Origin: a virus | DNA: 23,071 nucleotides | Virus record (IMG/VR): IMGVR_UViG_3300030012_000301 | Location: 1-23,071 of that record | Direction: 5' to 3' (one strand) | Shown here: positions 4,681 through 22,842 of the stretch, piece after piece | Layout: every line of letters starts with the position of its first letter | Position numbering within the stretch: position 1 is the stretch's first letter | The notes under the pieces: model-generated | What the model was told of the DNA's origin: nothing | Databases searched by the model: none | The model's input: only the letters and a program-made list of their open reading frames with translations | Position numbers and translations under genes: made by a program

Positions 4681-7161
4681 ATGGCAAATGTAAATGGAAC
4701 AGACATAAACCTGATGCCTACTGACGGCATGAGGAAAGAAGCAGAAAGATATAGAGAATGGAAAAAGGAAGGAGAAGGTGGTGGTACAGATGACGCAAGA
4801 ACAAGAGCAACACAAATATTAAGCGGAAACGAACTATCACCAGATACAGTTATTACAATGAACGCATGGTTCGCCCGCCATGAGTCAGATAAATCGGGAA
4901 AGGGTTTCCGACCCGGTGAAGATGGCTATCCTAGTAATGGTAGAGTAGCTTGGGCTGCTTGGGGCGGTGATGCTGGTCAAACATGGGCTAGGTCAAAGTC
5001 TAATTCAATCAAAAAAGCAAGAGAACGCACTATGACTGAAGAAACCAAAACAGAACACAGAGCCGAACCCGATGGGTTAAAGGTTGGTGATTTTGTGAGA
5101 TGGAACTCTAGCGGTGGTACAGCTAGAGGAAAAATTGATCGTATCGTAAGAGATGGATCAATAGATGTACCTGATAGTTCTTTTACTATTACTGGAACAG
5201 CAGAAGACCCTGCTGCACTTATAACTTTGTATCGAAATGGGGAGGCTACCGATAGAAAGGTCGGCCATAAATTTTCGACACTTACAAAAATTGCAGCGAT
5301 TAGAAGTGTTGATGCTGGAGATAGATTTGAACGTAAAGAGGTTACGGATTTCAAAAATGTGAAATCACGCACATTTGAGTTTCCTTTTAGTTCTGAATAC
5401 CCAGTAAAAAGATATTTTGGTAACGAAGTATTAAGCCATGAAGATGGTGCTGCCGATCTTAGCAGGCTAAATGATGGTGGTGCTGTTCTCTTTAATCACA
5501 ATATGGACAAGCCTATAGGTGTGGTTGAGAGTGCATATATTGGAGAAGATAAAAGAGGTTATGCCAAGATTCGTTTCTCTAGAAGTAAGTTTGCATCTGA
5601 GATTTTAGAAGATGTCAAGGACGGAATCTTGAGAGGTATAAGCTTTGGATACTCTATAAATGACATGGATGAGACTTCTGATGGTATGCTTGCAAGATCT
5701 TGGTCAGTTCACGAATTGTCAGTTGTGACAGTTCCGGCTGATCCAACAATCGGCTTCGGCAGAAGCTTGATCTCACCCTCACAAGGCAATAGTATTACTA
5801 TGGAAGATAAATCACCTCAACAGGAGATTATTTCTGCGGAAGAATCCGCATCACCCTCGGTTCGCACTATGGAAGAATCAACTAAAGAAACTGCGGTTGA
5901 AGCGGAGAAATCCGTTGAGATCGACATCAAAGCCGAAGTTCAACGTGCTTTAGATGAAAATAATGCTCGTACAGCAGCAATCACTTCATTATGTCGTGAG
6001 TTTGGAAAGTATGGAGCAGAAGAGCTTACTGACTCACTTATTAAATCTAATAAGTCACCAGCAGAAGCTAAAGCAGCTATCCTCGATCTTGTTAAAAACA
6101 AGGCAGAGGCAGTTAATACACCAATACGTTCTACTGACATGAGTAACAATGAAGTTGGCTTAGACCAAAAAGAAGTTAAGCAATTCTCTTTCTTAAGAGC
6201 ATTAAACGCATTAGCAAATCCAACAGATCGTGCTGCACAAGAAGCAGCAGCTTTTGAGAGAGAAGTATCTGACGCAGCTTCTAAAAAGTATGACAAGCCT
6301 GCAAACGGAATTTTAGTTCCTAACGAAGTTTTAAGAAGAGACTTGAATGTAGGTACTGCAACTGCTGGTGGTAACTTAGTTCCAACAGAATTATTAGCAG
6401 GCTCATTTATAGACATTCTTCGTAAAAGAATGGCTGTGATGGCAACAAACCCAACAATGTTGACCGGATTAAGTGGGAATGTGAGCATCCCCAGAATGAC
6501 ATCTACATCAACTGCGTACTTCGTGGGCGAGTCTGGCGCACCAACAGAGAGTCAACAGGCGTTTGATCAAATAAATATGACACCAAAGACTATTGGTGCA
6601 TTTGTTGATTACTCAAGACGCTTGTTATTGCAGTCATCTATAGACATTGAAACTATGATTAGGGATGACATAGCAAAGGTAATTGCCACTAAATTAGACA
6701 ACGCAGCTATCTATGGTTCTGGTAGTTCTAACGAGCCACTAGGTATTAAAGATACAACTGGTGTAGGCACACAGACAATCACAACATTTGGTACATTCGC
6801 AGAATATATTGGGATGGAAACTGATGTTGCAGCAGCAAACGCTGATGTAGCTAATATGTTCTACCTGATTAATGCTTCTGCTAGAGGTGCTTTAAAGTCA
6901 ACAGAGAAAGCTACAAACACAGCGCAGTTTGTATTTGAGAACAACGAAATAAACGGCTATCCAGTTGTTGTTTCTAATCAACTTGCAAACAATGATGTAC
7001 TCTTTGGAGACTTCAGCCAGTTCTGTATTGGTATGTGGTCAGGTTTAGATCTAACAGTAGATCCTTATGCAAACGCAACAAGCGGTAGCGTAAGAATAAT
7101 TGCGTTACAGGATGTGGATTTTGCGGTCAAACAGCCAACCGCATTTTGTTTCGGAACATAG
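4681..7161 (+). CDS. Prohead protease-major capsid polyprotein
   Basis: This 826-aa protein combines functions usually split among genes. Residues 1-116 have a conserved-looking domain ('GKGFRPGEDGYPSNGRVAW', then 'WGGDAGQTWA') that I recall at the start of some phage proteases. Residues 133-204 resemble a small Tudor-like domain ('VGDFVRWNSSGGTARGKIDR'). Residues 220-362 match HK97-type prohead protease, with 'LFNHN' (His273), 'RGISFGYSI' (Ser321 or Ser325) and 'HELSVVTVPADP' (344-355) as likely active-site motifs. Residues 375-540 are helical and charged, like a scaffold or delta domain. Residues 545-826 are HK97-fold capsid ('VPTELLAGSFIDILR', 'KTIGAFVDYSRRLLL', 'YGSGSSNEPLGI'). The protease would self-cleave and remove the delta region, leaving mature capsid near 270-290 aa. 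No frameshift or stop separates the parts. Cleavage positions cannot be read from sequence alone. Confidence 0.9.
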   Translation: MANVNGTDINLMPTDGMRKEAERYREWKKEGEGGGTDDARTRATQILSGNELSPDTVITMNAWFARHESDKSGKGFRPGEDGYPSNGRVAWAAWGGDAGQTWARSKSNSIKKARERTMTEETKTEHRAEPDGLKVGDFVRWNSSGGTARGKIDRIVRDGSIDVPDSSFTITGTAEDPAALITLYRNGEATDRKVGHKFSTLTKIAAIRSVDAGDRFERKEVTDFKNVKSRTFEFPFSSEYPVKRYFGNEVLSHEDGAADLSRLNDGGAVLFNHNMDKPIGVVESAYIGEDKRGYAKIRFSRSKFASEILEDVKDGILRGISFGYSINDMDETSDGMLARSWSVHELSVVTVPADPTIGFGRSLISPSQGNSITMEDKSPQQEIISAEESASPSVRTMEESTKETAVEAEKSVEIDIKAEVQRALDENNARTAAITSLCREFGKYGAEELTDSLIKSNKSPAEAKAAILDLVKNKAEAVNTPIRSTDMSNNEVGLDQKEVKQFSFLRALNALANPTDRAAQEAAAFEREVSDAASKKYDKPANGILVPNEVLRRDLNVGTATAGGNLVPTELLAGSFIDILRKRMAVMATNPTMLTGLSGNVSIPRMTSTSTAYFVGESGAPTESQQAFDQINMTPKTIGAFVDYSRRLLLQSSIDIETMIRDDIAKVIATKLDNAAIYGSGSSNEPLGIKDTTGVGTQTITTFGTFAEYIGMETDVAAANADVANMFYLINASARGALKSTEKATNTAQFVFENNEINGYPVVVSNQLANNDVLFGDFSQFCIGMWSGLDLTVDPYANATSGSVRIIALQDVDFAVKQPTAFCFGT

Positions 7162-10444: not shown

Positions 10445-12549
10445 TGGCTAATAATATAAATTTTGAAACTGTTAAGTTTAAATTAGAAGGCTTTGGTAAA
10501 TTAAAAGCTGTTGGTGGGGCTTTTAATAAATTAAATAAAAGTCTTTCTTTCACACCAAAACAAATAAATGAAGCAATAAAATCAATAACAAAATTTGACC
10601 AAAGAAGTAAAGGAGCTAATAATACATCTGTTCGTAGTGTCGCTACATATAACAAACAAATAGCAGCACTAAGAGAATTACAAAATAATGTTGCTATAGG
10701 TGGTAAAGCGTATAGAGCATTTGGAGCAGAGGCAGATAGATTAAGGGCGCAATTAGAAGCTCTAACTAATACTCAAAAGAAACAGAAAGGTTTCTTTGGA
10801 AAGATAGGTGTTGGAGGAAGAGCAGCACTTGGAGCAGCAGCAGGCTCAATAACAGCAGGGTTGGGGAGTACAGCTCAACTTGCTCTTACTGGTGGAGCTG
10901 TTGGTGGGGCTGCTGGAGCAGCTATTGGTGCTGGGGCTGGTTTAGCTATTGATACTGTGACATTCGCTGCTGATGCTGCTAAATACGCATCAGAAATACA
11001 GAAGCTTGAAATTGCGTTGATGGGTGTGACGAAAGATCAGGAAACTTTTGAAAAAGGAATGGCTGTTATTACAGAAACCTCGAAAAGACTAAACGTACCC
11101 ATAGCTGCATCTACCAAACAATTTACTACGTTAGCTGCTTCTGTTTTAGGTTCTGGTGGAACTATTGAGGATGCAGAAACAGTATTTGTCGGTGTTTCAG
11201 AAGCGATTAAGGCAACTGGTGGTAATGCAGAAGACGTACAATCTGCGATACGAGCCATGTCGCAGATCTTTGGTAAAGGTAAGGTGTCGGCAGAAGAGCT
11301 ACAAGGCCAGCTCGGTGAAAGATTGGCTGGTGCAGTTGTGAAATTTGCGGAAGCTAATGGTAGTAGTTTGCAAGATTTACAAAAAGATTTAAGAGATGGT
11401 GTTGTTGGTCTAGATCAAGTTATTGCGTTTGCCAAAAAGTTAAATATAGATTTTGGTGAAACAGCAGAAAAAGTTGCTAATTCATCTGCTGACGCAGGCC
11501 AAAGATTAAAAGTACAAATGGATAATTTTAAATTAATTATAGGAAGATCAGTACTTCCTATTGGTGCTGCGTTTCAAGGAATGATGAGTGACATTGTGCT
11601 GGGAATTACTGAGAATGAAGGTATTATGAATGGTTTGGCTCTGACATTTAAAACTATAGGTGCTGCTGCATTTATAACTGTTGCTGGAGTAAGATTTTTA
11701 ATTAGAACTTTAGCCGATTTATTTTTAATACAACAAGCAATTTTAAGATTAGATTTTGAAGAAGTTGGAAATATTATTAGTAAAGGTTTAAAAGATACAA
11801 AAGAAAACTTTGAACAAGATTCTGAAGCTTTAAAAAATATGTTTATTATTAAACCAAAGATAGAAGCTCCAGAGGGCGGTACTAATGACGGTACTGGAAC
11901 AGGAAGTGGTTTTGAAGATTTAGGTGGAGATGCAAACAAAGGGCCATTACAATCATTTGCTAAAAGTGCATTTGATCTCGCAAAACAAACTGAGGAAGCT
12001 TTTGTAAATGCTTTTAAAGGGATGGAAGATGCTTTAGTTAAGTTTGTCAGGACAGGAAAGTTAAACTTTACAGATTTAGCAAACTCTATTATTGCTGATT
12101 TGACGAGGATGCTTGTAAGGTACGCTGTTGTACAGCCTTTGTTCAAAGCAATATTTCCAAATATCAAAATTGGAAGCGCAAATGGAAATGTATTTAATAA
12201 TGGTGAGGTTGTACCAAGTGCTAAAGGTAATGTCTTTGCTAAAAATAAAATTGTTCCATACGCTTATGGAGGCATAGTAAACAAACCAACGATATTCCCA
12301 ATGGCAAACGGCATGGGGCTTATGGGCGAGGCCGGCCCAGAAGCTATTATGCCTTTGAAACGTGGTGCTAACGGAAAACTTGGAGTGCAAAGTTCTGGAG
12401 GTGTTGGTAATATTGTTGTAAATGTAGATGCTTCTGGTAGTTCTGTTCAAGGGGATTCTGCTCAGTCAGAACAATTTGGTAGGGCTTTAGCTGCTGCTAT
12501 ACAATCAGAAATAGTACAACAACAAAGACCGGGAGGGTTACTTACTTAA
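10444..12549 (+). CDS. Tape measure protein (lambda gpH position)
   Basis: This 701-aa protein would fill the tail tube, set its length and enter the cell envelope at DNA ejection. It starts at GTG 10444 with AAGGAG (10430-10435) eight bases upstream, overlapping the chaperone stop by one base (TAGTG). Residues 1-120 are helical. A Gly/Ala-rich hydrophobic stretch spans about 124-175, a likely membrane-active segment. Residues 180-345 match tape-measure N-terminal domains ('ALMGVTKDQETFEKGMAVIT', 'KGKVSAEELQGQLGERLAGA'). A second hydrophobic stretch lies near 405-430. The C-terminus has the motif 'GGIVNKPTIFPMANGMGLMG' then 'EAGPEAIMPLKRG', shared by many tape measure proteins. At roughly 0.15 nm per residue the tail would be about 100 nm. 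Confidence 0.92.
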   Translation: MANNINFETVKFKLEGFGKLKAVGGAFNKLNKSLSFTPKQINEAIKSITKFDQRSKGANNTSVRSVATYNKQIAALRELQNNVAIGGKAYRAFGAEADRLRAQLEALTNTQKKQKGFFGKIGVGGRAALGAAAGSITAGLGSTAQLALTGGAVGGAAGAAIGAGAGLAIDTVTFAADAAKYASEIQKLEIALMGVTKDQETFEKGMAVITETSKRLNVPIAASTKQFTTLAASVLGSGGTIEDAETVFVGVSEAIKATGGNAEDVQSAIRAMSQIFGKGKVSAEELQGQLGERLAGAVVKFAEANGSSLQDLQKDLRDGVVGLDQVIAFAKKLNIDFGETAEKVANSSADAGQRLKVQMDNFKLIIGRSVLPIGAAFQGMMSDIVLGITENEGIMNGLALTFKTIGAAAFITVAGVRFLIRTLADLFLIQQAILRLDFEEVGNIISKGLKDTKENFEQDSEALKNMFIIKPKIEAPEGGTNDGTGTGSGFEDLGGDANKGPLQSFAKSAFDLAKQTEEAFVNAFKGMEDALVKFVRTGKLNFTDLANSIIADLTRMLVRYAVVQPLFKAIFPNIKIGSANGNVFNNGEVVPSAKGNVFAKNKIVPYAYGGIVNKPTIFPMANGMGLMGEAGPEAIMPLKRGANGKLGVQSSGGVGNIVVNVDASGSSVQGDSAQSEQFGRALAAAIQSEIVQQQRPGGLLT

Positions 12550-13118
12550 TGGCTACTTTTCCATCTATTGACCCAAGCTTTAGCGTTAAAAAAGATCAAG
12601 CTCCAGTAAGTAAAGTTGTACGATTTGCTGATGGTTACGAACATCGTTTAATTTTTGGTTTACCAAATAATCAAAACCCAAGACTTTATAGTTTAACTTG
12701 GGAAAATATTACTGAAGAAGAATCTGATATTATTGATTATTTTTTACAAGAAAGAGCTTTTGATAAAGCTAGTTTTGATTATGCTCCACCAAGAGAAAAT
12801 TTTACAAAAACAGGAGTATATACACAAAACGCAACTGTTATTACTATTACGATAAACAATCATAGATTATTTGCTGGTGATTCAATAGTTATTGACTTTA
12901 CGTCTGGATCTTCATCTGATGGAACATATGTAGTTTCTTCTGTGACTAATGCAAATGTTTTTAAAGTAACTGCTTCTGGAAGTGCAACGACAAATGGAAA
13001 CGTATCAATAACAAAAACTGGGTCTGGTAAGTTTGTATGTGAAAAATGGACTAAAACTATTAATTTTCCTACTGTTGCGACTATAGACGCTACATTTAGA
13101 GAAGTATTTGAGCCATGA
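12549..13118 (+). CDS. Minor tail protein (gpM-like) with an inserted beta module
   Basis: This 189-aa protein occupies the M position after the tape measure. Residues 1-88 match gpM-type tail tip proteins ('VVRFADGYEHRLIFGLPNNQ', 'YSLTWENITEEESDIIDYFL'). The family core resumes after residue 158 ('GSGKFVCEKWTKTINFPTVA') and ends 'ATFREVFEP'. Between them, residues 89-154 form a 66-aa beta-rich module that recurs twice in the J-like protein. The module is bordered by TKTG at 86-89 and 155-158, so removing it and one border would restore a continuous family domain. Lambda gpM has 109 aa; without the insert this protein would be about 120. It would form part of the ring at the distal tail end. 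The start overlaps the tape measure stop (TAATG). Confidence 0.82.
   Translation: MATFPSIDPSFSVKKDQAPVSKVVRFADGYEHRLIFGLPNNQNPRLYSLTWENITEEESDIIDYFLQERAFDKASFDYAPPRENFTKTGVYTQNATVITITINNHRLFAGDSIVIDFTSGSSSDGTYVVSSVTNANVFKVTASGSATTNGNVSITKTGSGKFVCEKWTKTINFPTVATIDATFREVFEP
12813..13010 (+). repeat. 66-aa beta module, copy 1 (in gpM-like protein)
   Basis: Encodes residues 89-154 of the gpM-like protein. It aligns without gaps to the two copies in the J-like gene at 17866-18063 and 18187-18384. Against the first J copy I count about 31 identities in 66 positions. Key shared positions are Tyr3, Gln5, the I-T pair near 12-13, His17, Gly22, Gly32, Gly37 and V-T near 44-45. Similar 'HG...G..v...' modules recur in marine phage structural proteins, and some resemble small FCCH-like beta barrels. 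Confidence 0.85.
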
Positions 13119-13696
13119 GTACTGCGCCTGTTTTTAGTGATTTACAAAAAGTAAATCCATCATCAATAATAGAGCTATTCACATTAACTCTAGACTCTGC
13201 TTTGCATGGTGCAAATACTGTATATAGATTTCATTCTGGATCTAATCTTAATGCAAATGGCGAAATAGTCTGGAAGGGAAATAGTTATCTTCGTTTTCCT
13301 ATACAAGCAACAGGTTTTGCTTATAAGAGAGGACAGTTACCAAGACCACAAATAAGCATTAGTAATATGGGAACTCCATCCATATCAGCCATATTATTAA
13401 CTGTAAATCAAACAACTGAGGGTAATGACTTAGGAGGTGCAAAAGTTGTAAGAATTAGAACAATGGCAAAATTTTTAGATGCTGCAAACTTTTCTGGGGC
13501 TGTTAATCCTTTTGGAACTCCAGACCCAAATGCAGAGTTTCCCCAAGAAATATATTTCATAGATCGCAAGTCAGCAGAAAATAGAGAAGTAGTAACTTGG
13601 GAACTTGCTGCTGTTTTTGACCTTGCTGGGATTCGTGCGCCAAAACGTCAATGCACAAGAGCTTTATTCCCAACAATAGGTACATTTGTTCAATGA
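13115..13696 (+). CDS. Minor tail protein (gpL-like), short C-terminus
   Basis: This 193-aa protein is in the L position. Its N-terminal and middle parts match the L family: 'LQKVNPSSIIELFTLTLDSA', 'GEIVWKGNSYLRFPIQATGF', 'KRGQLPRPQISISNMG' and 'EIYFIDRKSAENREVVTWEL'. The region 'LAGIRAPKRQCTRALFPTIG' corresponds to the hinge before the C-terminal domain, where lambda gpL (232 aa) carries cysteines that bind an iron-sulphur cluster. Here the protein ends about ten residues after that first Cys (Cys183), so the cluster-binding region is missing. The following DNA encodes the K-like protein in another frame and holds no remnant of it. The start and stop are both ATGA overlaps with neighbours. 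Confidence 0.82.
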   Translation: MSTAPVFSDLQKVNPSSIIELFTLTLDSALHGANTVYRFHSGSNLNANGEIVWKGNSYLRFPIQATGFAYKRGQLPRPQISISNMGTPSISAILLTVNQTTEGNDLGGAKVVRIRTMAKFLDAANFSGAVNPFGTPDPNAEFPQEIYFIDRKSAENREVVTWELAAVFDLAGIRAPKRQCTRALFPTIGTFVQ

Positions 13697-14394
13697 ATTG
13701 GAAAGATAAAGCATTGGCTCATGCAAAAGAACAAGACCCAAAAGAATCGGTAGGCTTATTGTTAAATATAAAAGGCAAAGAAAGATATTTTCCTTGCAAT
13801 AATTTATCTATATCTAATCATCAAGAGTTTATTCTTGATCCCGAAGATTATGTAAAAGCAGATAATCTTGGTTCAATTATGGCAATAATCCATAGCCATC
13901 CAATCTCTCCACCTACACCAAGTCAAGCAGATAGGATAAGTTGTGAACAAAGTAAATTGCCTTGGTATATAGTAAATCCAAGAACAGAAGAATGGGGAGA
14001 GTGTATCCCTAATGGCTATGTGGCAGATTTGTTAGGAAGGACTTGGGTTTGGGGTATAACTGATTGTTGGTCTTTAGTTCGTGATTGGTATAAACAAGAA
14101 AGGAATATAGAACTTATTGATTACGAAAGAAATATGACTCCCGAAGATTTTTTAAAAAAACCATTATTTGAAAAATATGCAAAAGATACTGGTTTTAGGG
14201 AATTAAAAAGTGATGAACCATTACAAAAAGGCGATGTATTATTAATGTCAATAGCACACCCAACTTTAAATCATGTAGCTATTTTCCTTGGGGATATGGT
14301 TTTACATCATTTAGCAGATAGACTATCTTGTAGAGAACCATATTCAGAATGGTTATTAAAAAGTACTGGTAAGAGGTATCGTTATGCTTCGTAA
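13693..14394 (+). CDS. Tail tip protein with JAMM and NlpC/P60 domains (gpK-like)
   Basis: This 233-aa protein is in the K position and has two enzyme-like domains. Residues 1-96 are a JAB/MPN (JAMM) metallopeptidase: Glu18, then 'HSHPISPPTPSQAD' with His67, His69 and Asp80 in the H-x-H-P-x6-S-x2-D pattern. Residues 110-233 are NlpC/P60-like: 'ITDCWSLVRDWY' with Cys125, 'NHVAIFLGD' with His204, and 'HHLADRLS' near 215-222. All predicted catalytic residues are present. Such proteins act in tail tip assembly and may cut peptidoglycan stems at infection. I chose ATG 13693, overlapping the L stop as ATGA, because it begins right at the family start; an in-frame ATG at 13651 would add 14 residues inside the L gene. 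It overlaps the next gene by 11 bases. Confidence 0.88.
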   Translation: MNWKDKALAHAKEQDPKESVGLLLNIKGKERYFPCNNLSISNHQEFILDPEDYVKADNLGSIMAIIHSHPISPPTPSQADRISCEQSKLPWYIVNPRTEEWGECIPNGYVADLLGRTWVWGITDCWSLVRDWYKQERNIELIDYERNMTPEDFLKKPLFEKYAKDTGFRELKSDEPLQKGDVLLMSIAHPTLNHVAIFLGDMVLHHLADRLSCREPYSEWLLKSTGKRYRYAS

Positions 14395-15004
14395 AGTAAA
14401 ATTATATGGAGAACTTGCAGAGTTTGTAGGCCATAAAGAATTAAAAGCTGTTGTAAAAAATCCAGCAGAAGCGGTCAGATTTCTTATTACTAATTTTCCA
14501 AAATTAGAAGCACATATGGCTAATCAATATTATCAAGTTTTAGTAGGTAAAGAAGATATTGATGAGGAAGACTTGCATAATCCTATGGGTCAATCAGATA
14601 TATCTTTTGTTCCTGTAATTACTGGTGCTGGTGGTAATAGTCCATTTGGAAGGATTTTGCTTGGAGCAGCATTAATAGGAGCTAGTTTTTTATTTCCGGG
14701 TGCTGGTTTGTTTGGTAAAGCTGGAGCAGAATTAACAGGAGGTATTGTTACAGGGTTTGCTGCAAAAATAGGAACTGCTGTTAGTGCTATAGGTGCTGGT
14801 TTAGTTTTAAATGGCGTTTCAGAATTATTGTTTCCTATATCACAACCAGAAGCTCAAGAAGATGATCCAAGAATATCATTTGGATTTTCTGGAGTGCAAA
14901 ATACATCACGAGCCGGAACTAGCGTTCCTATAGTTTATGGAGAAGTTGTGACTGGATCTGTCGTGATTTCTGCTGGTATTGATACAAATCAGGTGCAAGT
15001 ATGA
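14384..15004 (+). CDS. Tail assembly protein (gpI-like)
   Basis: This 206-aa protein lies between K and J, as gpI does in lambda (223 aa). Residues 1-80 look like the ubiquitin-like fold of this family ('LRKVKLYGELAEFVGHKELK', 'PAEAVRFLITNFPKLEAHM', ending 'SDISFVPVITGAGG'). Residues 85-150 are Gly/Ala-rich and hydrophobic, with possible membrane segments ('ILLGAALIGASFLFPGAGLF', 'AVSAIGAGLVLNGVSELLF'). The end ('SRAGTSVPIVYGEVVTGSVV') resembles the conserved gpI C-terminus, which is similar to tail tip segments. It has an AGAGGT-like ribosome site (about 14372-14377) and overlaps the J start by 4 bases (ATGA). It may insert J or be shed during maturation. Confidence 0.85.
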   Translation: MLRKVKLYGELAEFVGHKELKAVVKNPAEAVRFLITNFPKLEAHMANQYYQVLVGKEDIDEEDLHNPMGQSDISFVPVITGAGGNSPFGRILLGAALIGASFLFPGAGLFGKAGAELTGGIVTGFAAKIGTAVSAIGAGLVLNGVSELLFPISQPEAQEDDPRISFGFSGVQNTSRAGTSVPIVYGEVVTGSVVISAGIDTNQVQV

Positions 15005-18000
15005 CAGATAAAATTATTAGAGGTTCTGGTGGGCCTCCTCCTACACCTCCACCTCCGTATCGTGCGCCAGACACCTTAAATAGTAGGCAGTTTGCAACCA
15101 TACAAGACTTATTATCAGAGGGAGAAATAGAAGGTTTTGCAACCCCCTCTAAAGCAGGCTTAACAAGAAATACTTCTGCTTATAACAATGCAGCTTTAAA
15201 AGATATATTTTTAAACGATACTCCAATATTAAGAGAAGGTGCAAGTAACACTAATCCTTCTGCTGGAGACTTTGCTTTCCAAAACGTAGGTTTTAAAGTT
15301 AAATTTGGAACTTCAAACCAAACTCCTATGACAGGTATTGTTAAAGAGGGCGGTGAAAACACACATGCAGTCGGTGGTAAACCTAGTAATCCGCTTGGAA
15401 CAAACGCATCAGCAGCAGCTAATTCAGTTACTAAAAGAGTTCAAAATAATAATATTGATGCTGTAAAAGTTACGATTACATTTCCACAGTTGCAAGAGGC
15501 AAAAGACAACGGTGATTTAATAGGAGCAGAGGTTACATTACGAATAAAAGTATCTTATGACGGTGGTTCTTACTCTACAAAAATTACAGATACAATTAAA
15601 GGTCGATCTGCTGATTCATATTCCAAGCAATATAGATTTGATTTAGATACATTTTCTAACTCATGCGATGTTCGTGTAGAAAGAGTTACTAAAGACAGCG
15701 AAAGTGAGAGTTTAAAAGATGAGTTCACATATGTCTCATTAGGAGAGATAGAAGACACACGACAATCGTATCCTGATAGTGCTTACGCAGCTTTACGCTT
15801 AGATTCAGAACAGTTTAACTCTATACCTAAACGTGCTTTTAGAATAAGAGGAATAAAAATTAAAATACCAGCTTCAAATAATACTGGTACTCCAACAGTT
15901 GTAAATAACCAAGCCGAGGCTACTGCGTTAGGTCTTGGTACTGTGAGTAGTTTTGGATTTATACATTATCCTTCTAACTATGTTTTTGACGGAACAATGG
16001 GAGCAGCTCAATGGTGTAGTTGTCCTAGTATGGTGTTACTTGATTTGCTTACAAGCCAAAGGTATGGTTTCGGAACACAGATCTCACCAGACCAGTCAAC
16101 AGATGCTAAAAGATACGAAAATTTAGATCTATTTAGTTTTGTAGCAGCTAGTAGATATGCAAATACATTAGTAAGTAATGGCTTCGGCCATGACGAACCA
16201 AGGTTTAGCTGTAATGTAAATATCCAGTCATCAAAAGAAGCTTTTAATTTAATTAAAGATTTAGCATCGGTTATGAGATGTATGACTATATGGAGTTCTG
16301 GATCTATTACAATTTCTCAAGACAGTCCAACAGATCCAAGTTATTTATTCAGTTTATCTAATGTAACTCCAGAAGGTTTTAACTATACAGGCTCTAGCCT
16401 TAAGCAAAGGCATACCGTTTTATCTGTCAGTTATTTCAATATGGAGAGCAGACAGATAGATTATGAAGTTGTAGGAGATGATGTTTCCGGCCCAAACGCA
16501 TTACAAGAAGATATTGATAGACAGGCAAAATTTGGAATTATTAAACGAGATATTAGAGCTTTTGCTTGTACATCAAGAGGCCAAGCAAGAAGACTTGGTA
16601 AGGCAATATTACTAAGCGAAGAATCAGAGACAGAGATAGTTAATTTTTCTACCTCAATAGAGGCTGGGGCGATTGTTAGGCCCGGTGCTGTTATTAATGT
16701 ACAAGACCCAGTAAGAAGAGGTGAAAGGAGATCAGGTCGTATAAAATCTGCAACGACAACACAAATTACTATTGATGATGAGATACAAAATTTTACAGGT
16801 GCTAATCAAAAATGTAGTGTTATTTTGCCTGATGGAAGTGTTGAGACTGGATCAATATCAAATCTTGATGGATCTGTTTTAACTGTTAATAATATTACAA
16901 GGAAAGATGGATCTATAAATAATTCTTCGTTTACAGAAGCTCCAAATATAAATTCAATATGGTTAGTACAGAGTGATGGAACAGGAGAAAAACCTGCGAC
17001 TTATAGGGTCATAAGTATTGAGGAGCAAGATGGTATTAATTATTCAATAACAGCAATAACATATCGTCCAGAAAAATATGCAGCTATAGACAATATGCAG
17101 GGCATAACTTTACCTCCAAGAAGCATATCTCTACTGAATCAACCCAAGCAACCCCCATCAAGTATTTCAGCAGAGGAAAGAGTTGTAGTTATCAATGCTC
17201 TTGCTGTCGTAAAATTAATTGTTTCTTGGCAGGCAGTTCAAGGAGTAACTCAATATTTGTTGCAATATAGGTATCAAGGAGGAAACTGGACAAATGTAAT
17301 CGTATTTAGACCTGATTTTGAGATTGTTGGAACTGATGCTGGTCTGTATGAATTTAAAGTTTTTTCTTATAATGCTGCATTAAAATTATCAACATCTTCT
17401 GCTGATTTATCCTTTAATGCTATAGGTAAAACAGCACCTCCATCTGATGTAGAAAATTTATCAATAGAACCTGTCACTAATAAATTTGTGAGATTAAGAT
17501 GGGATCTATCAAGAGATCCAGACGTTATACATGGTGGTCGAGTTTATGTAAGACATTCAAATAAAACTGATGGTAGTGGTACATTTCAAAATTCAGTAGA
17601 TTTAATACCGGCTTTAGCTGGTAATACAACTGAGGCAACTTTACCAAATCTTGAGGGAGAATATATTTTAAAATTTCGTGATGACCAAGGAAATTTCAGC
17701 ACAGGAGAAACTTCAATAATATTAGACCTTCCAGACTTAATAGATGAAAAGGTAGTATTGCAAGATAGAGAAGATACTGATAGTACACCGTTTGGAGGCA
17801 CTAAAGTTAGGACAAGCCTTGTAAGTGGAGGATTAGAACTAACAGATCCTACATCTACTATTACAGGCACATATAGTCAGTCCGGAAAAACTGTAACTAT
17901 TACGATTTCAAATCATGGTGTTATTGTTGGAGAAAAATTAGATATTACTTATATAACTGGAGGATCAATTAGTGGCACATTTCAAGTCGCAAGTGTTACT

Positions 18001-19005
18001 AACACAAATGTTTTTACAGTACAGGCAAAAGACAATCGAACAATAACAGGTAATGTTTCTATTGCTGTTGGCTTAAGAGGTACATATAGTTTTGCTAATA
18101 AAATTGACCTTGGTGGTATTTTCTCTTTAAATTTAAAAAGATTAATGCAAAGTATTGGCTTTGCAGAAGGGGGTCAAACGATAACTGCTACTTATACGCA
18201 ATCTGGAACTACCGTTCAAATTACAAGCGCAAGTCATGGTCGTTCTGTAGGGAATTATATAGATTTCAATGCTATTTCTGGTGCAGGGGTTGATGGTATA
18301 TATCAAATCACAGCAGTAACTACAAACACTTTTGATTTTACTTCTGCGACCTCACAGACTGTTTCTACATCTAATTGTACATTTGCTTTTGTTAATACAA
18401 TAGATCAACTAATACCAGCAGGGACTTTTTGGGATGATTATGCTCCTAACGGTAATTTTGATGGCCCAGAAGTAAATGATGTTAGTGCAAATATTAATGT
18501 TAGAACTACAAATAATGACCCAGCATCCAATAGTGCAATATTTAGTCCTTTTAATAGATTTGCAAATGGAACTTTTAAAGGTCGAGGGTTTGATTTTAGA
18601 GTAAATATAGAATCTGAAAATATTGCTCATAATATTAATATTCAACAATTAGCTATAATTGCTTCTTTTGAATCAAGAACAGAGCTTAGCCATATTTTGT
18701 CTAATGGAGATATAAGTAGTGAGAAAATCACATCATCAGGGACATCATCAGGTACTACAGTTGAATTTGCTAATCCTTTTTTCGTGGGAACTTCTACATT
18801 AGGAGGACTTGATAAATTTTTACCATCAATAGGGATTACAATTCAAGATGCTCAAGGCGGTGATTTTTTTCAATTAGAACATGTAAATGATGCAAATGGT
18901 TTGAAGGGTCGAAAATTTAATATAAAGATTATGAATGGAAGTACATCAAATCACGTTCAAAGAGATTTTACATTTCAAGCTGTCGGTTATGGCAAAGGGG
19001 TGTAA
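15001..19005 (+). CDS. Tail tip attachment protein, host specificity (gpJ-like)
   Basis: This 1334-aa protein is the central tail fibre or tip that contacts the host receptor. A proline-rich stretch (10-20) precedes 'LNSRQFATIQDLLSEGEIEG', close to the lambda J start. Further J marks are 'SAYAALRLDSEQFNSIPKRA', 'GFGHDEPRFSCNVNIQSSKE', 'LASVMRCMTIWSSGSITISQ' and 'FACTSRGQARRLGKA' (from about 521). Two fibronectin-III-like domains lie near 716-808 and 810-905. Two copies of a 66-aa beta module follow at 956-1021 and 1063-1128. The rest (1130-1334) is beta-rich and probably holds the receptor-binding part ('FFQLEHVNDANGLKGRKFNI', 'DFTFQAVGYGKG'). Lambda J has 1132 aa. The two modules add about 170 residues with their spacer, so they account for most of the extra length. 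Confidence 0.95.
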   Translation: MTDKIIRGSGGPPPTPPPPYRAPDTLNSRQFATIQDLLSEGEIEGFATPSKAGLTRNTSAYNNAALKDIFLNDTPILREGASNTNPSAGDFAFQNVGFKVKFGTSNQTPMTGIVKEGGENTHAVGGKPSNPLGTNASAAANSVTKRVQNNNIDAVKVTITFPQLQEAKDNGDLIGAEVTLRIKVSYDGGSYSTKITDTIKGRSADSYSKQYRFDLDTFSNSCDVRVERVTKDSESESLKDEFTYVSLGEIEDTRQSYPDSAYAALRLDSEQFNSIPKRAFRIRGIKIKIPASNNTGTPTVVNNQAEATALGLGTVSSFGFIHYPSNYVFDGTMGAAQWCSCPSMVLLDLLTSQRYGFGTQISPDQSTDAKRYENLDLFSFVAASRYANTLVSNGFGHDEPRFSCNVNIQSSKEAFNLIKDLASVMRCMTIWSSGSITISQDSPTDPSYLFSLSNVTPEGFNYTGSSLKQRHTVLSVSYFNMESRQIDYEVVGDDVSGPNALQEDIDRQAKFGIIKRDIRAFACTSRGQARRLGKAILLSEESETEIVNFSTSIEAGAIVRPGAVINVQDPVRRGERRSGRIKSATTTQITIDDEIQNFTGANQKCSVILPDGSVETGSISNLDGSVLTVNNITRKDGSINNSSFTEAPNINSIWLVQSDGTGEKPATYRVISIEEQDGINYSITAITYRPEKYAAIDNMQGITLPPRSISLLNQPKQPPSSISAEERVVVINALAVVKLIVSWQAVQGVTQYLLQYRYQGGNWTNVIVFRPDFEIVGTDAGLYEFKVFSYNAALKLSTSSADLSFNAIGKTAPPSDVENLSIEPVTNKFVRLRWDLSRDPDVIHGGRVYVRHSNKTDGSGTFQNSVDLIPALAGNTTEATLPNLEGEYILKFRDDQGNFSTGETSIILDLPDLIDEKVVLQDREDTDSTPFGGTKVRTSLVSGGLELTDPTSTITGTYSQSGKTVTITISNHGVIVGEKLDITYITGGSISGTFQVASVTNTNVFTVQAKDNRTITGNVSIAVGLRGTYSFANKIDLGGIFSLNLKRLMQSIGFAEGGQTITATYTQSGTTVQITSASHGRSVGNYIDFNAISGAGVDGIYQITAVTTNTFDFTSATSQTVSTSNCTFAFVNTIDQLIPAGTFWDDYAPNGNFDGPEVNDVSANINVRTTNNDPASNSAIFSPFNRFANGTFKGRGFDFRVNIESENIAHNINIQQLAIIASFESRTELSHILSNGDISSEKITSSGTSSGTTVEFANPFFVGTSTLGGLDKFLPSIGITIQDAQGGDFFQLEHVNDANGLKGRKFNIKIMNGSTSNHVQRDFTFQAVGYGKGV
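17866..18063 (+). repeat. 66-aa beta module, copy 2 (in gpJ-like protein)
   Basis: Encodes residues 956-1021, beginning 'GTYSQSGKTVTITISNHG' and ending 'TGNVSI'. It aligns without gaps to the module in the gpM-like protein (about 31 of 66 identical) and to copy 3 (about 23 of 66 identical), both counted by eye. It sits after the second fibronectin-like domain. Confidence 0.85.
18187..18384 (+). repeat. 66-aa beta module, copy 3 (in gpJ-like protein)
   Basis: Encodes residues 1063-1128, beginning 'ATYTQSGTTVQITSASHG'. It is the most diverged of the three copies and loses similarity toward its end. About 41 residues separate it from copy 2. Confidence 0.8.
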
Positions 19006-19027: not shown

Positions 19028-20260
19028 ATGACACAGCAAGTTCCTAATAAAGTTATAGCTAACGCTTCTGGTCAAGTTGTAAGACTTGATATAGAAAACT
19101 CACTTAAAGCTACGGCTGCTAATAATTTTGGGCCTTTGTCATCCGGAGGTGAGTTGTTACCTTGTGAATTTTTTGCACAATCAGATCAATCAAAAAAATT
19201 ATTTATAAGAGGAACAACTGGGGGAAACATAGCTGATCAAAGTCATACACCTCTTTCAGAGAGAGCAACATTGTTTGAGGTTGGTAATTTAGACGAGGCT
19301 AATCTAGGTTTACTTCCTAAAGCTGGTGGTACTATGACTGGTCAGTTATTAGGAGATGATGGATCTGTTTCGGGGAGTCCGGCTTATTCCTTCGATAATG
19401 ATGAAGATACAGGAATGTTTAGGCAAGGTTCTGATTCTATTGGGCTTAGTACTGGTGGCACACAAAAATTACAGATAGATAATAATGGTATTACTGTTTT
19501 TGGTAATACCACAACCTCAAGATCTTTGGTTTTAAGAGAAGCATCTAATAACGGTACTGCACAAGTTTCAATTAAATGTAGAAATAATTTATCTGGAGGC
19601 AGCTACACTCTTACTTTACCTCCTAATGATGGCAGTTCTGGTCAGTTTTTGCAGACTAATGGTTCTGGTAGTTTATCATTTGCAACGGTAACTACGTTTT
19701 CTGGTGCTGCATCTGCTTTAACTGGTAACACATTAGCAAGTGGAGTGACCTCCTCTAGCTTAACTTCTGTGGGTACATTGACAGGACTTTCAGTAAATGG
19801 TGGTTTAACAGTTTCACAAAATATTACCGCTAATGGAAATATAAATGGAGATGGCAATACAAATATTTCAAGTATTAATCAAGTAGCAGCAACCACCCAC
19901 AAAGCTACACGATTCCGAAGTAATAATAGTAGTACCCCCGTATTTCAAAATTCAAGTGGTTCTGAAACAGCAGCAGGGAGATTAGTAAGAGCTTTTTGTC
20001 ATTTTGATTCTTTTAGAAATCAAGGTGCAAACGATAACTATGCAAGCATAAGAAGATCATTTAACGTCAGTTCTGTTACTGATCATTCAGAAGGTGTATT
20101 TACAATTAATTATCATAGATTTACTTTTGGTAATCATTGTCAATGTTATTTAGATTCAGAGAATGGTGCTAATGCTGGTAATGTAAAAATTAGAATTATT
20201 GCCTCAACAAACTCAGGTGGAGTTTTAGATAAAAGTAGTGTTAATGTTACATGTTGTTGA
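19028..20260 (+). CDS. Tail fibre protein
   Basis: This 410-aa protein is rich in Gly, Ser, Thr and Asn. Its start ('NKVIANASGQVVRLDIENSL' from about 7, then 'KATAANNFGPLSS') and 'FEVGNLDEANLGLLPKAGG' match fibre proteins I know from marine phages. 'LPKAGGTMTGQLLGDDGS' (96-113) is the common phage fibre repeat motif. Residues 118-158 ('AYSFDNDEDTGMFRQGSDSI' and the following strand) form a frequent cyanophage-like fibre segment. Residues 210-290 are a low-complexity Ser/Gly/Thr shaft. The last 110 residues, with several Cys, Phe and His ('FCHFDSFRNQG', 'FTFGNHCQCYLDSENG', ending 'VNVTCC'), look like a globular tip, possibly receptor-binding. There is no clear Shine-Dalgarno. A conserved AT-rich motif precedes the gene. 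Confidence 0.75.
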   Translation: MTQQVPNKVIANASGQVVRLDIENSLKATAANNFGPLSSGGELLPCEFFAQSDQSKKLFIRGTTGGNIADQSHTPLSERATLFEVGNLDEANLGLLPKAGGTMTGQLLGDDGSVSGSPAYSFDNDEDTGMFRQGSDSIGLSTGGTQKLQIDNNGITVFGNTTTSRSLVLREASNNGTAQVSIKCRNNLSGGSYTLTLPPNDGSSGQFLQTNGSGSLSFATVTTFSGAASALTGNTLASGVTSSSLTSVGTLTGLSVNGGLTVSQNITANGNINGDGNTNISSINQVAATTHKATRFRSNNSSTPVFQNSSGSETAAGRLVRAFCHFDSFRNQGANDNYASIRRSFNVSSVTDHSEGVFTINYHRFTFGNHCQCYLDSENGANAGNVKIRIIASTNSGGVLDKSSVNVTCC

Positions 20261-20279
20261 TAAAATATAAGTAAAAACT

Positions 20280-20519
20280 ATGGCAGAAACTAGACGTATT
20301 CTTTATCCAAACGAATCAGGTGGAGTTGATATGTTAATCCCATCAGGAGAAATTCCTTTTGAAGATGTTTGTAAAAAAGATGTACCAAAAGGAAAACCTT
20401 ATATAGTAGTTGATGCCACAGAGCTTCCTGATGGCTATTTTAGATCTGCATGGAGAGCAGATTTTTCTTCTCCTGATGGTACAGGTATAGGAGCAGATGC
20501 TTATTTTGAATCATTATGA
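20280..20519 (+). CDS. Small fibre-associated protein, unknown function
   Basis: This 79-aa protein contains 'IPFEDVCKKDVPKGKPYIVV' (about 25-44) followed by 'DATELPDGYFRSAWRADFSS'. This pattern, with 'P.G......V.D...LPd..FR.AW', is one I recall in small proteins beside tail fibre genes of many phages, usually paired with the kind of protein encoded next. Their role is not established; fibre assembly is a reasonable guess. It has no signal peptide or membrane segment. Its stop overlaps the next start as ATGA, so the two are probably translated together. The same AATATAAG-type motif lies before this gene as before the fibre gene at 19028. Confidence 0.55.
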   Translation: MAETRRILYPNESGGVDMLIPSGEIPFEDVCKKDVPKGKPYIVVDATELPDGYFRSAWRADFSSPDGTGIGADAYFESL

Positions 20520-20782
20520 ACTCTAAACTTTCTATTGATATGTCTGTAGCAAAAGAGCTACATAAAAATAATATAAGAGCAGCAAGAGAATCAAAACTTC
20601 AATCATTAGATATTGAATTTCAACGTGCTATTGAGACTTCTGCTGATACAAAAGATATTGTTGCTAAAAAACAAGCACTTCGAGATGCTACATCTGCATC
20701 AGACATTGCAAATGCAACATCAACTGATGACTTGAGAAAACAATGGGATAGCAGTATTCTAGGTACAACTCCTTATACATAA
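20516..20782 (+). CDS. Small helical fibre-associated protein, unknown function
   Basis: This 88-aa protein is almost wholly helical: 'SVAKELHKNNIRAARESKLQ', then 'LDIEFQRAIETSADTKDIVA' and 'KKQALRDATSASDIANATS', ending 'LRKQWDSSILGTTPYT'. The 'K.....I R..R...L..LD.ef.rA.e....  ...KK..LRD' arrangement is one I recall as the usual partner of the preceding gene. It may be a chaperone for fibre folding or attachment, as in other phages where short helical proteins follow fibre genes. No enzyme motif is present. The next gene begins one base after its stop. Confidence 0.55.
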   Translation: MNSKLSIDMSVAKELHKNNIRAARESKLQSLDIEFQRAIETSADTKDIVAKKQALRDATSASDIANATSTDDLRKQWDSSILGTTPYT

Positions 20783-20783
20783 A

Positions 20784-21125
20784 ATGGCAATTCAACCAGC
20801 CACATATAATATGACGATCCAAAGAAGATCGGATCATAAAATTCAAATTATTTTTAAAGATAGTACTGATACTCCAATAAATTTAACTGGATATACAGTA
20901 GAAGCACAGGTTTGGGAAGAAACACGCACAACAAAATATGCTGATTTTACTGTGGATTACACAAATAGATCTGGAGGTACGGTTGATATTTCGTTGACAG
21001 ATACACAAACCGCTACTTTTGCTCCCAAAAATTTAAAATATGATGTATTACTAACTAATGGTAGTGGATTAAAAGAGTATTATTTAGAAGGAGATATAAA
21101 AATGAGTGAGGGCTACACCGCATGA
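20784..21125 (+). CDS. Small Ig-like baseplate or fibre protein
   Basis: This 113-aa beta-rich protein begins 'MAIQPATYNMTIQRRSDHKI' and continues 'QIIFKDSTDTPINLTGYTVE', 'ADFTVDYTNRSGGTVDISLT' and 'LKYDVLLTNGSGLKEYYLEG'. This is the pattern of the N-terminal domain of upper baseplate (BppU-like) proteins and of short proteins common among marine cyanophage fibre genes. Such domains usually bridge the tail tip and a fibre. It stands alone here instead of being part of a longer fibre. Its stop overlaps the next start as ATGA. The family likeness is strong, but the exact partner is unknown. Confidence 0.6.
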   Translation: MAIQPATYNMTIQRRSDHKIQIIFKDSTDTPINLTGYTVEAQVWEETRTTKYADFTVDYTNRSGGTVDISLTDTQTATFAPKNLKYDVLLTNGSGLKEYYLEGDIKMSEGYTA

Positions 21126-21361
21126 CATCCGTAAACATTACTACAACTAAAAATACTGTTACAGTTAATGAAGGAGAATCAACAGTTCTTACTGTTGTAA
21201 CTCGTGGCCCACAAGGTCAAAGCTTTTCTGTGACTGGTACAACTCTTGATGATTCTGCAAAAGTTGATAACTCGGTACTGTATTTTAACCAAAGTAGTGG
21301 TACATTTAAAGCAGATGCTACTCGTACTGTAGAAAATTTAGTCGATGGGGGTAATTTTTAG
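21122..21361 (+). CDS. Small fibre-associated protein with a GPQG motif
   Basis: This 79-aa protein starts 'MTSVNITTTKNTVTVNEGES' and 'TVLTVVTRGPQGQSFSVTGT'. The first 30 residues form a short beta pair, and the collagen-like GPQG at 29-32 marks a turn to a second part. Proteins of this type often come just before fibre genes in marine phages. It could be an adaptor that seats the fibre encoded next. Its TAG overlaps the GTG start of that gene by one base. I know of no defined function. Confidence 0.5.
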   Translation: MTSVNITTTKNTVTVNEGESTVLTVVTRGPQGQSFSVTGTTLDDSAKVDNSVLYFNQSSGTFKADATRTVENLVDGGNF

Positions 21362-22842
21362 TGGCAAACACAATCCGAATCAAAAGATCTACTGGTACGT
21401 CAGCACCGGGAAGTTTAGAAAATGCTGAATTAGCGTTTGCTGAAGGCAGTAAAAAGCTATTTATTGGTATTGGTACAGGTGGGTCTGGGGGTTCTGCAAC
21501 AACCATCGAGGCTATTGGTGGGTCTGGTAGTTTTGCAGATTTATTTACAAGTAGAACACAGAATACATTCTTAGCTGCACCAGATGGAAGTAACGGTGCT
21601 GCAACATTTAGGGCAATGGTAGCCGATGACGTACCTTCGTTGTTGCATACAAAAATAAGTGATTTTGATACTGGTGTAAGAACAAATAAATTAAATGAAA
21701 TGGCTGCTCCTACAGCCTCAGTCTCATTAAATAGTCAAACAATTACTAATCTAGCTGATCCTGTAAATACACAGGATGCAGCGACTCGTGGATTTGTTGA
21801 AGCTACTGCACAAGGACTTGATGTTAAAGATTCATGCGTGGCAGCGACTACAGGAAATATTACAATCGCTACTGCACTTAATAATGGAGACACTCTTGAT
21901 GGTGTTACTCTTTCTGATAATGATCGAGTATTAGTTAAAGATCAAAATACTTCTTCCGAAAACGGTATCTATGTTGTTGGATCTTCTCCAGCTAGAGCAG
22001 TTGATCTAGCTGCTGGTGCAGACGCAGCAGGGATGTTCACTTTTATTGAGCAAGGAACTGTCAATGCTGATAATGGGTTCGTTTGCACTAGCAATAAAGG
22101 ATCAGCAGTTGTTGGTACGAATAATCTTACTTTTGCTCAATTTTCTGGTGCTGGTCAAATAACTACAGCAGATGGCATACAAAAGTCAGGGAATACAATA
22201 TCAGTTGATCTTAAATCTAATGGGGGACTTGTAATTGAATCTAGTGAAGTAGCTGTAGACCTTGCAGCTAGTTCTATTACAGGGACTCTTGCGATAGGAG
22301 ATGGAGGAACAGGTGCTACAAGTGCAAGTGCAGCTAGAACATCATTAGGGCTTGTCATCGGTACAGACGTAGAACCCCATAGCGACAAGTTGACAGAACT
22401 TGCAACGATGGCTCAAACAACAGCCAATAGTTTAGCTGATTTAAGTGCTACAGAAGTACAAATATTAGATGGGGCTACATTAACAACTACTGAACTTAAT
22501 TTTGTTGATGGTGTTACTTCTGCAATTCAAACACAATTAAATAATAAGCAACCTTTAGATTCTGAGCTAACAGAACTCGCAACCATGTCTAGTGGTACGG
22601 CAAGTGCTTTAGCAGATTTAACAGGAACAGAAGTAGCTATTTTAGATGGTGCTACAGTAACCACTACCGAGTTAAACATTATAGATGGAAATACATCTGC
22701 GACTTCAACGACTCTTGCTACTGCTGATCGAATGGTTATAAACGATGCAGGGACTATGGTTCAAGTTGCATTATCTGATCTTGTTACTTTTCTTGAAAAT
22801 GAAAGTGTATCAGGTTTCAATATAGACGGTGGTACTTATTGA
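21361..22842 (+). CDS. Tail fibre protein with Mtd-N-like start and tandem repeats
   Basis: This 493-aa protein starts at GTG 21361, overlapping the previous stop (TAGTG). Residues 1-55 ('ANTIRIKRSTGTSAPGSLEN', 'AELAFAEGSKKLFIG') match the trimer-forming N-terminal domain found in Mtd and many marine phage fibres. Residues 95-250 hold a 'TRGFVEATAQGLDVKDSCVA' segment and further strands, also typical of phage fibres. Residues 341-399 and 400-458 are a tandem 59-aa repeat. The end ('GFNIDGGTY') is short and no C-type lectin fold or variable repeat is visible. A second gene with the same kind of N-terminus begins downstream, so this protein and that one may form parts of a composite fibre. Confidence 0.75.
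   Translation: MANTIRIKRSTGTSAPGSLENAELAFAEGSKKLFIGIGTGGSGGSATTIEAIGGSGSFADLFTSRTQNTFLAAPDGSNGAATFRAMVADDVPSLLHTKISDFDTGVRTNKLNEMAAPTASVSLNSQTITNLADPVNTQDAATRGFVEATAQGLDVKDSCVAATTGNITIATALNNGDTLDGVTLSDNDRVLVKDQNTSSENGIYVVGSSPARAVDLAAGADAAGMFTFIEQGTVNADNGFVCTSNKGSAVVGTNNLTFAQFSGAGQITTADGIQKSGNTISVDLKSNGGLVIESSEVAVDLAASSITGTLAIGDGGTGATSASAARTSLGLVIGTDVEPHSDKLTELATMAQTTANSLADLSATEVQILDGATLTTTELNFVDGVTSAIQTQLNNKQPLDSELTELATMSSGTASALADLTGTEVAILDGATVTTTELNIIDGNTSATSTTLATADRMVINDAGTMVQVALSDLVTFLENESVSGFNIDGGTY
22381..22734 (+). repeat. Tandem 177-base repeat in the fibre gene
   Basis: Units 22381-22557 and 22558-22734 encode 59 residues each and align without gaps. Shared cores are 'LTELATM', 'S?LADL' and 'TEV?ILDGAT', then 'TTTELN'. 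The second half of each unit is more diverged ('FVDGVTSAIQTQLNNK' versus 'IIDGNTSATSTTLATA'). Such units are common in the shaft of phage fibres. Confidence 0.85.

Follow-up and report, generated by a model that had tools for sequence, protein, structure and literature searches.

The window, by which we mean the whole analysed stretch of 23,071 bases from a virus record, carries a tail-tip operon in which the tape measure gene is followed by M, L, K-like (JAB plus NlpC/P60), I and J genes, the order found in lambda. The gpM-like protein matches lambda gpM in a sequence search against the PDB (8iyk, E 3.9e-5), and its Pfam Phage_min_tail match is split into two stretches. The gpJ-like protein matches the lambda gpJ structures 8iyk and 9e7m, and Pfam and PHROG place no sialidase domain in either protein. 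Both proteins contain copies of a small module, which lie, together with the sites discussed below, as follows:

12549..13118, + strand: gpM-like distal tail (Dit ring) protein, 189 aa, with inserted module (Pfam Phage_min_tail, PHROG 14)
12798..13022, + strand: gpM insertion segment, about residues 84-158, from empty-site alignment with module-less gpMs
12813..13010, + strand: module copy M, 66 aa, in frame with the gpM-like ORF
15001..19005, + strand: gpJ-like central tail fibre or hub protein, 1334 aa (FNIII-A_GpJ, Phage-tail_3, PHROG 31)
15885..15886, + strand: J site A, about residue 301, empty in the window and filled in L044, L056 and L089
17725..19002, + strand: J-like C-terminal region, host of both J modules, from alignment and AF2 model
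17866..18063, + strand: module copy J1, 66 aa, in frame with the gpJ-like ORF, filling J site B (about residue 961 of the module-free alignment)
18187..18384, + strand: module copy J2, 66 aa, in frame with the gpJ-like ORF, filling J site C (about residue 1002 of the module-free alignment)
18531..18532, + strand: J site D, about residue 1051, empty in the window and filled in L073 and P-HS2/MED4-184 (L004)

Elsewhere in the window, one ORF at 4681-7161 joins Hva1_TUDOR, S78 prohead protease and phage capsid domains in a protease-capsid fusion, and the gpK-like ORF (13651-14394), if started at its first ATG, shares 46 bases with the end of gpL.

An earlier note on this DNA had described three 66-residue segments, and their coordinates and reading frames proved exact. 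Its matches by eye, about 31 of 66 residues between M and J1 and about 23 between J1 and J2, agree with ungapped counts of 31/66 and 23/66, M and J2 sharing 18/66. Smith-Waterman z-scores against 2000 shuffles are 20 for M-J1, 14 for J1-J2 and 9 for M-J2, and with these identities the claim that one domain is common to two otherwise unrelated tip proteins holds. At the nucleotide level the same pairs are identical at 119, 103 and 91 of 198 positions, and identical residues use the same codon in under half of cases for M-J1 and J1-J2 and in 10/18 for M-J2; this low nucleotide identity and codon sharing indicates that the three copies are old. A three-copy HMM run over all six frames found no fourth copy in the window. 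The alignment is gapless only in that 66 residues face 66, since J2 has one deletion (near residue 46) that is offset by one insertion (near residue 61). Because modules across the family span 64-79 residues, with 66 the usual length, the equal length that had been taken as a sign of a surface ring is no evidence of a shared structural ring, and a fixed 66-residue length was rejected as a ring constraint.

Alignment of the window gpM with module-less gpMs, namely those of Marine virus AG-345-A17, Synechococcus phage S-H1 and seven further examples, gives a clean boundary, the empty protein reading ...APGE-SASQ-KFVC... and the window protein ...PPRE-[~75 residues]-KFVC.... The module occupies the hairpin that follows the ring helix. 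Proteins lacking it measure 115 residues in AG-345-A17, 112 in S-H1 and 109 in lambda, and 113 of the 185 gpM frames that we collected are without it. At least 596 IMG/VR stretches are related to the AG-345-A17 gpM, although filled and empty sites were not told apart for all of them, and the best 80 were kept. One contig of a Maricaulis MAG also matches the gpM profile, and there too the module is absent. With so many module-less relatives, lambda gpM among them, and a clean empty site, the ordinary gpM family domain does not include the M copy, whose inclusion was an alternative that the earlier note had raised against itself.

Among J proteins gathered by homology, modules occur only at the four sites A to D of the module-free alignment. 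Occupancy varies from three sites in L044 to one or none in others, and L097 carries a tandem pair at site C. Phages with modules in both M and J, in M only, in J only and in neither all exist in our sample, which was not random and implies no frequencies, so M and J copies do not form an obligate pair. The most decorated tip that we saw is that of L073 (905-7936), a single contig with the module in its M, L, I-like and J proteins; the gpL-like proteins of L297 (2579-3829) and L301 (612-1862) each have two N-terminal copies.

AF2 models were obtained for gpM (pLDDT 79, pTM 0.55) and for the J C-terminal region (mean pLDDT 69, with the module segments mostly at ~70-92). Rather than three different folds, J1 and J2 repeat the four-strand pattern of the M module, and each window copy is predicted to form a distinct small barrel. 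The gpM model matches T5-type Dit proteins including pb9 (E ~1e-7) and lambda gpM (TM 0.73 on target), as well as the phi92 and K1F endosialidases and UBA1, UBA6 and UBA7, while the J model gives weak fold matches to endosialidase and UBA. In Foldseek the UBA matches of the two models have probabilities mostly of 0.94-1.00 over ~115-150 columns, at modest E values of 0.02-0.1. In BFVD, the tail spike of Bacillus phage Mater superposes at 1.7 Å over 76 columns. The module does not match the Ig fold, its fold matches being the endosialidase barrel and FCCH.

Against PDB sequences, a profile built from 21 copies finds only endosialidases below E 0.001 (phi92, 4hiz, E 2.4e-7; K1F, 1v0e, E 8.3e-5), and in Pfam 17/21 of these copies match PF12195 and 2/21 match E1_FCCH. 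The window copies score 24.8, 28.3 and 15.3 bits with PF12195, under its gathering cut-off of 35 bits, which the capsid copy of phage P-SSP2 clears at 39.5 bits; a hand-written consensus also passes, but as it is not a natural sequence we gave it no weight. The guess of an FCCH-like fold is therefore upheld by profile and fold searches alike, and the family is best explained as a mobile domain of about 66 residues in the endosialidase-barrel/E1-FCCH fold group. The phage endosialidase barrel (PF12195; K1F, phi92), related by profile homology and by fold, likewise lies within a virion adhesin protein, but the window proteins have neither sialidase propeller nor active site. E1 FCCH (PF16190), which fits the M and J models in fold, presumably shares the fold group only, as the window module lies outside any ubiquitin-activating enzyme.

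The module is found well beyond the tail tip. It occurs in the major capsid protein of the cyanopodoviruses P-SSP2 and P-SSP3, in the tail fibres of P-HM1, P-HM2 and MED4-213, in the tail-tube B protein of NATL1A-7, in spike or fibre proteins of one Bacillus and one Aeromonas phage, and, among uncultured phages, in baseplate-wedge proteins and T7-type tail-tube proteins. P-HS2, a cultured Prochlorococcus phage related to that of the window, has it in both gpM and the J-like protein. That similar modules exist in other marine phage proteins, as had been supposed, is thus confirmed for many virion proteins, and, occurring on capsid, tube, fibre and baseplate, the module is a general virion decoration rather than a tip-specific part. 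A bolder extension, that the module is one shared adhesive unit by which unrelated marine podo-, myo- and siphovirus virions all recognise the same widespread marine surface glycan, we consider unlikely; if it were true, a single binding specificity would be reused on every particle layer, from capsid, tail tube and distal ring to fibre and baseplate.

In 62 gpM genes that carry the module at one shared position, mean identity is 83% in the module and 73% in the gpM core, and pN/pS is 0.127 versus 0.186, so purifying selection acts more strongly on the M copy than on the core. Two of our six search patterns fall inside the module; with the pattern columns excluded the identities are 82% versus 72%, and in eight strongly thinned sequences the contrast is weaker, at 64% versus 59%. 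Such conservation speaks for a structural task or a conserved partner rather than for a receptor-binding surface that evolves fast. In composition the barrel is rich in serine and threonine, charged residues are rare, and tryptophan is present in 0/72 copies.

By analogy with known phage tails, we see an even chance that the modules act as a weak multivalent adhesive decoration of the distal-tail ring and J fibre, binding a host-surface glycan. In lambda, a gpM hexamer joins tube and hub, and gpJ is a trimer (PMC10721106). With a barrel domain inserted in loops of virion proteins, the gpM ring, if hexameric, as known only for lambda and T5, would carry six copies, and a trimeric J fibre with two loops of its C-terminal region filled would add six further modules. 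Together these tip modules could present a weak multivalent adhesive surface, and reversible binding to host-surface glycan would precede the irreversible receptor step. Outward orientation and glycan binding are plausible by comparison with related structures: the barrel of the K1F endosialidase is a polysialic-acid site and a hotspot of host discrimination (PMC12632334), the OB domain of the T5 pb9 ring has been proposed to bind cell-surface carbohydrate (PMC10038345), and in some 'evolved Dits' carbohydrate-binding modules have been shown to bind in this way (PMC7291167). Moreover, HHpred aligned lambda gpM 4-77 with pb9 12-85 (PMC7291167), which implies that the T5 extension begins near the gpM hairpin holding the module. 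Counting against the adhesive reading are the lack of tryptophan and the few charged residues, unlike many carbohydrate-binding modules, and the independent presence of modules in M and J, while the copies on major capsid and tail-tube proteins mean that a tip-specific role is not required.

The main rival holds that the modules are structural, bracing neighbouring subunits or covering the joint between tail tube and tip, and so stabilise the virion in seawater with no ligand. Stronger conservation of the M copy than of the core fits such a role at least as well as it fits a host-tracking adhesin, and a Ser/Thr-rich barrel without tryptophan that is also present on capsid, tail-tube and baseplate-wedge proteins speaks for it too. 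However, assembly in this clade can do without the module, since close relatives are missing the M copies, the J copies or both, and among solved structures its nearest relative is a barrel that binds glycans; a purely structural role is possible, though in our judgement rather unlikely. It is decidedly unlikely that the modules dock a different protein of the virion, for example one of the side-fibre products whose genes lie downstream (19028-22842). In Gram-positive siphophages, receptor-binding proteins are indeed anchored on the distal tail protein as a platform (PMC10038345), but T5 pb9, with its OB domain, binds only the tube-forming proteins (PMC10038345), module-less relatives are abundant, and we identified no conserved partner.

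Mapped onto a tree of the gpM core, presence of the module requires 3 changes, compared with 22.6 for shuffled labels, so the notion of an exchangeable decoration, in the sense of current swapping, finds no support in gpM. The same stable inheritance, with the strong purifying selection on the M copy, makes it very unlikely that the module is a nearly neutral mobile domain lodged in permissive loops with no selected function, despite its many unrelated host proteins and patchy distribution. In a tree of 72 module copies, which rests on 66 columns and leaves many forks open, six site groups need 6 label changes, against a minimum of 5 and a shuffled mean of 37, and 0/200 label shuffles gave a value as low. 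Sites A, C and D each form one side of a branch in this tree, and a single clade is not rejected for M (p 0.49) or for site B (AU p 0.21). Identity between M and J1 is the same within genomes (0.430) as between genomes (0.435); when 72 M copies are ranked by identity to the window J1, the window's own M comes only 52nd.

Copies thus group by insertion site and not by genome. Of the origin proposed in the earlier note, a common source stands, and spread between genes within this operon is unsupported. Recent intra-operon duplication or gene conversion was rejected on the tree and identity tests, and ongoing copying and homogenisation between M and J, to which the 31/66 identity of M and J1 might point, is extremely improbable in view of the same results. 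Judged from these sequences, the module is not passing between the M and J genes of the window phage; the copies derive from a common source, entered M and J long ago and have been inherited with their sites since. In keeping with the adhesive reading, the module probably decorates the virion surface as an old and stable feature, and so helps the virus to cling to cells.

That distal tail and tail-tube proteins can carry decoration domains is already recognised (PMC13243795; PMC7291167). T5 pb9, among the best PDB fold matches of the M model, joins an additional beta domain, departing from near the same point, to a ring domain of the gpM type, but there the decoration is an OB fold, whereas that of the window gpM is an endosialidase/FCCH-type barrel. 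The evolved Dits and Tals of Gram-positive siphophages likewise carry extra domains in loops of distal-tail ring and hub proteins (PMC7291167). Like a decorated Dit, the window gpM has a gpM/Dit ring domain with a loop insertion absent from relatives. It lacks the CBM-bearing galectin domain of the classical evolved Dit: whereas evolved Dits carry BppA-like CBMs in the galectin domain (PMC7291167), here a single module type is inserted straight into the lambda-type ring domain, and into the C-terminal region of J. Phage capsid, tail-tube and fibre proteins also bear Ig-like decorations, which are small beta domains too but of another fold. Our literature search, which covered sources outside most subscription journals, returned no paper on this module in gpM or gpJ of marine phages, and nothing relevant on FCCH in phages or on PF12195. 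Distal-tail rings with decorations, known best from T5 and Gram-positive siphophages, thus also occur in the lambda-type tails of abundant uncultured marine phages, where the decoration is another domain, one that is traceable at each insertion site. Because M and J naturally occur with and without the module, the function of tail decoration can be tested in the cultured P-HS2.

The window gpL (13115-13696) and 120 further homologues end 19 residues past the start of an APK motif, and all 121/121 examined in the marine clade have at most one cysteine after that start, so that they apparently lack the four-cysteine [4Fe-4S] domain found at the C-terminus of lambda gpL. In the module-less clade, the gpL of Marine virus AG-345-A17 (L005:7418-8410) contains an inserted domain of ~130 residues with a cupredoxin-like pattern; the stretch has no Pfam match, and its motif (...HPLRI...YYCSTHGNSM...) was seen by eye in AG-345-A17 only. 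Judging from this motif, the insert may possibly provide a copper site in a tail-tip protein. About 35 further loci have gpL frames of ~331 residues and were grouped with AG-345-A17 gpL by frame length. A similar cupredoxin-like motif, YYC..HSGMG, occurs in large proteins, matching neither gpL nor gpJ, that are encoded by frames at 7627 in L114, 11127 in L172 and 10966 in L190.
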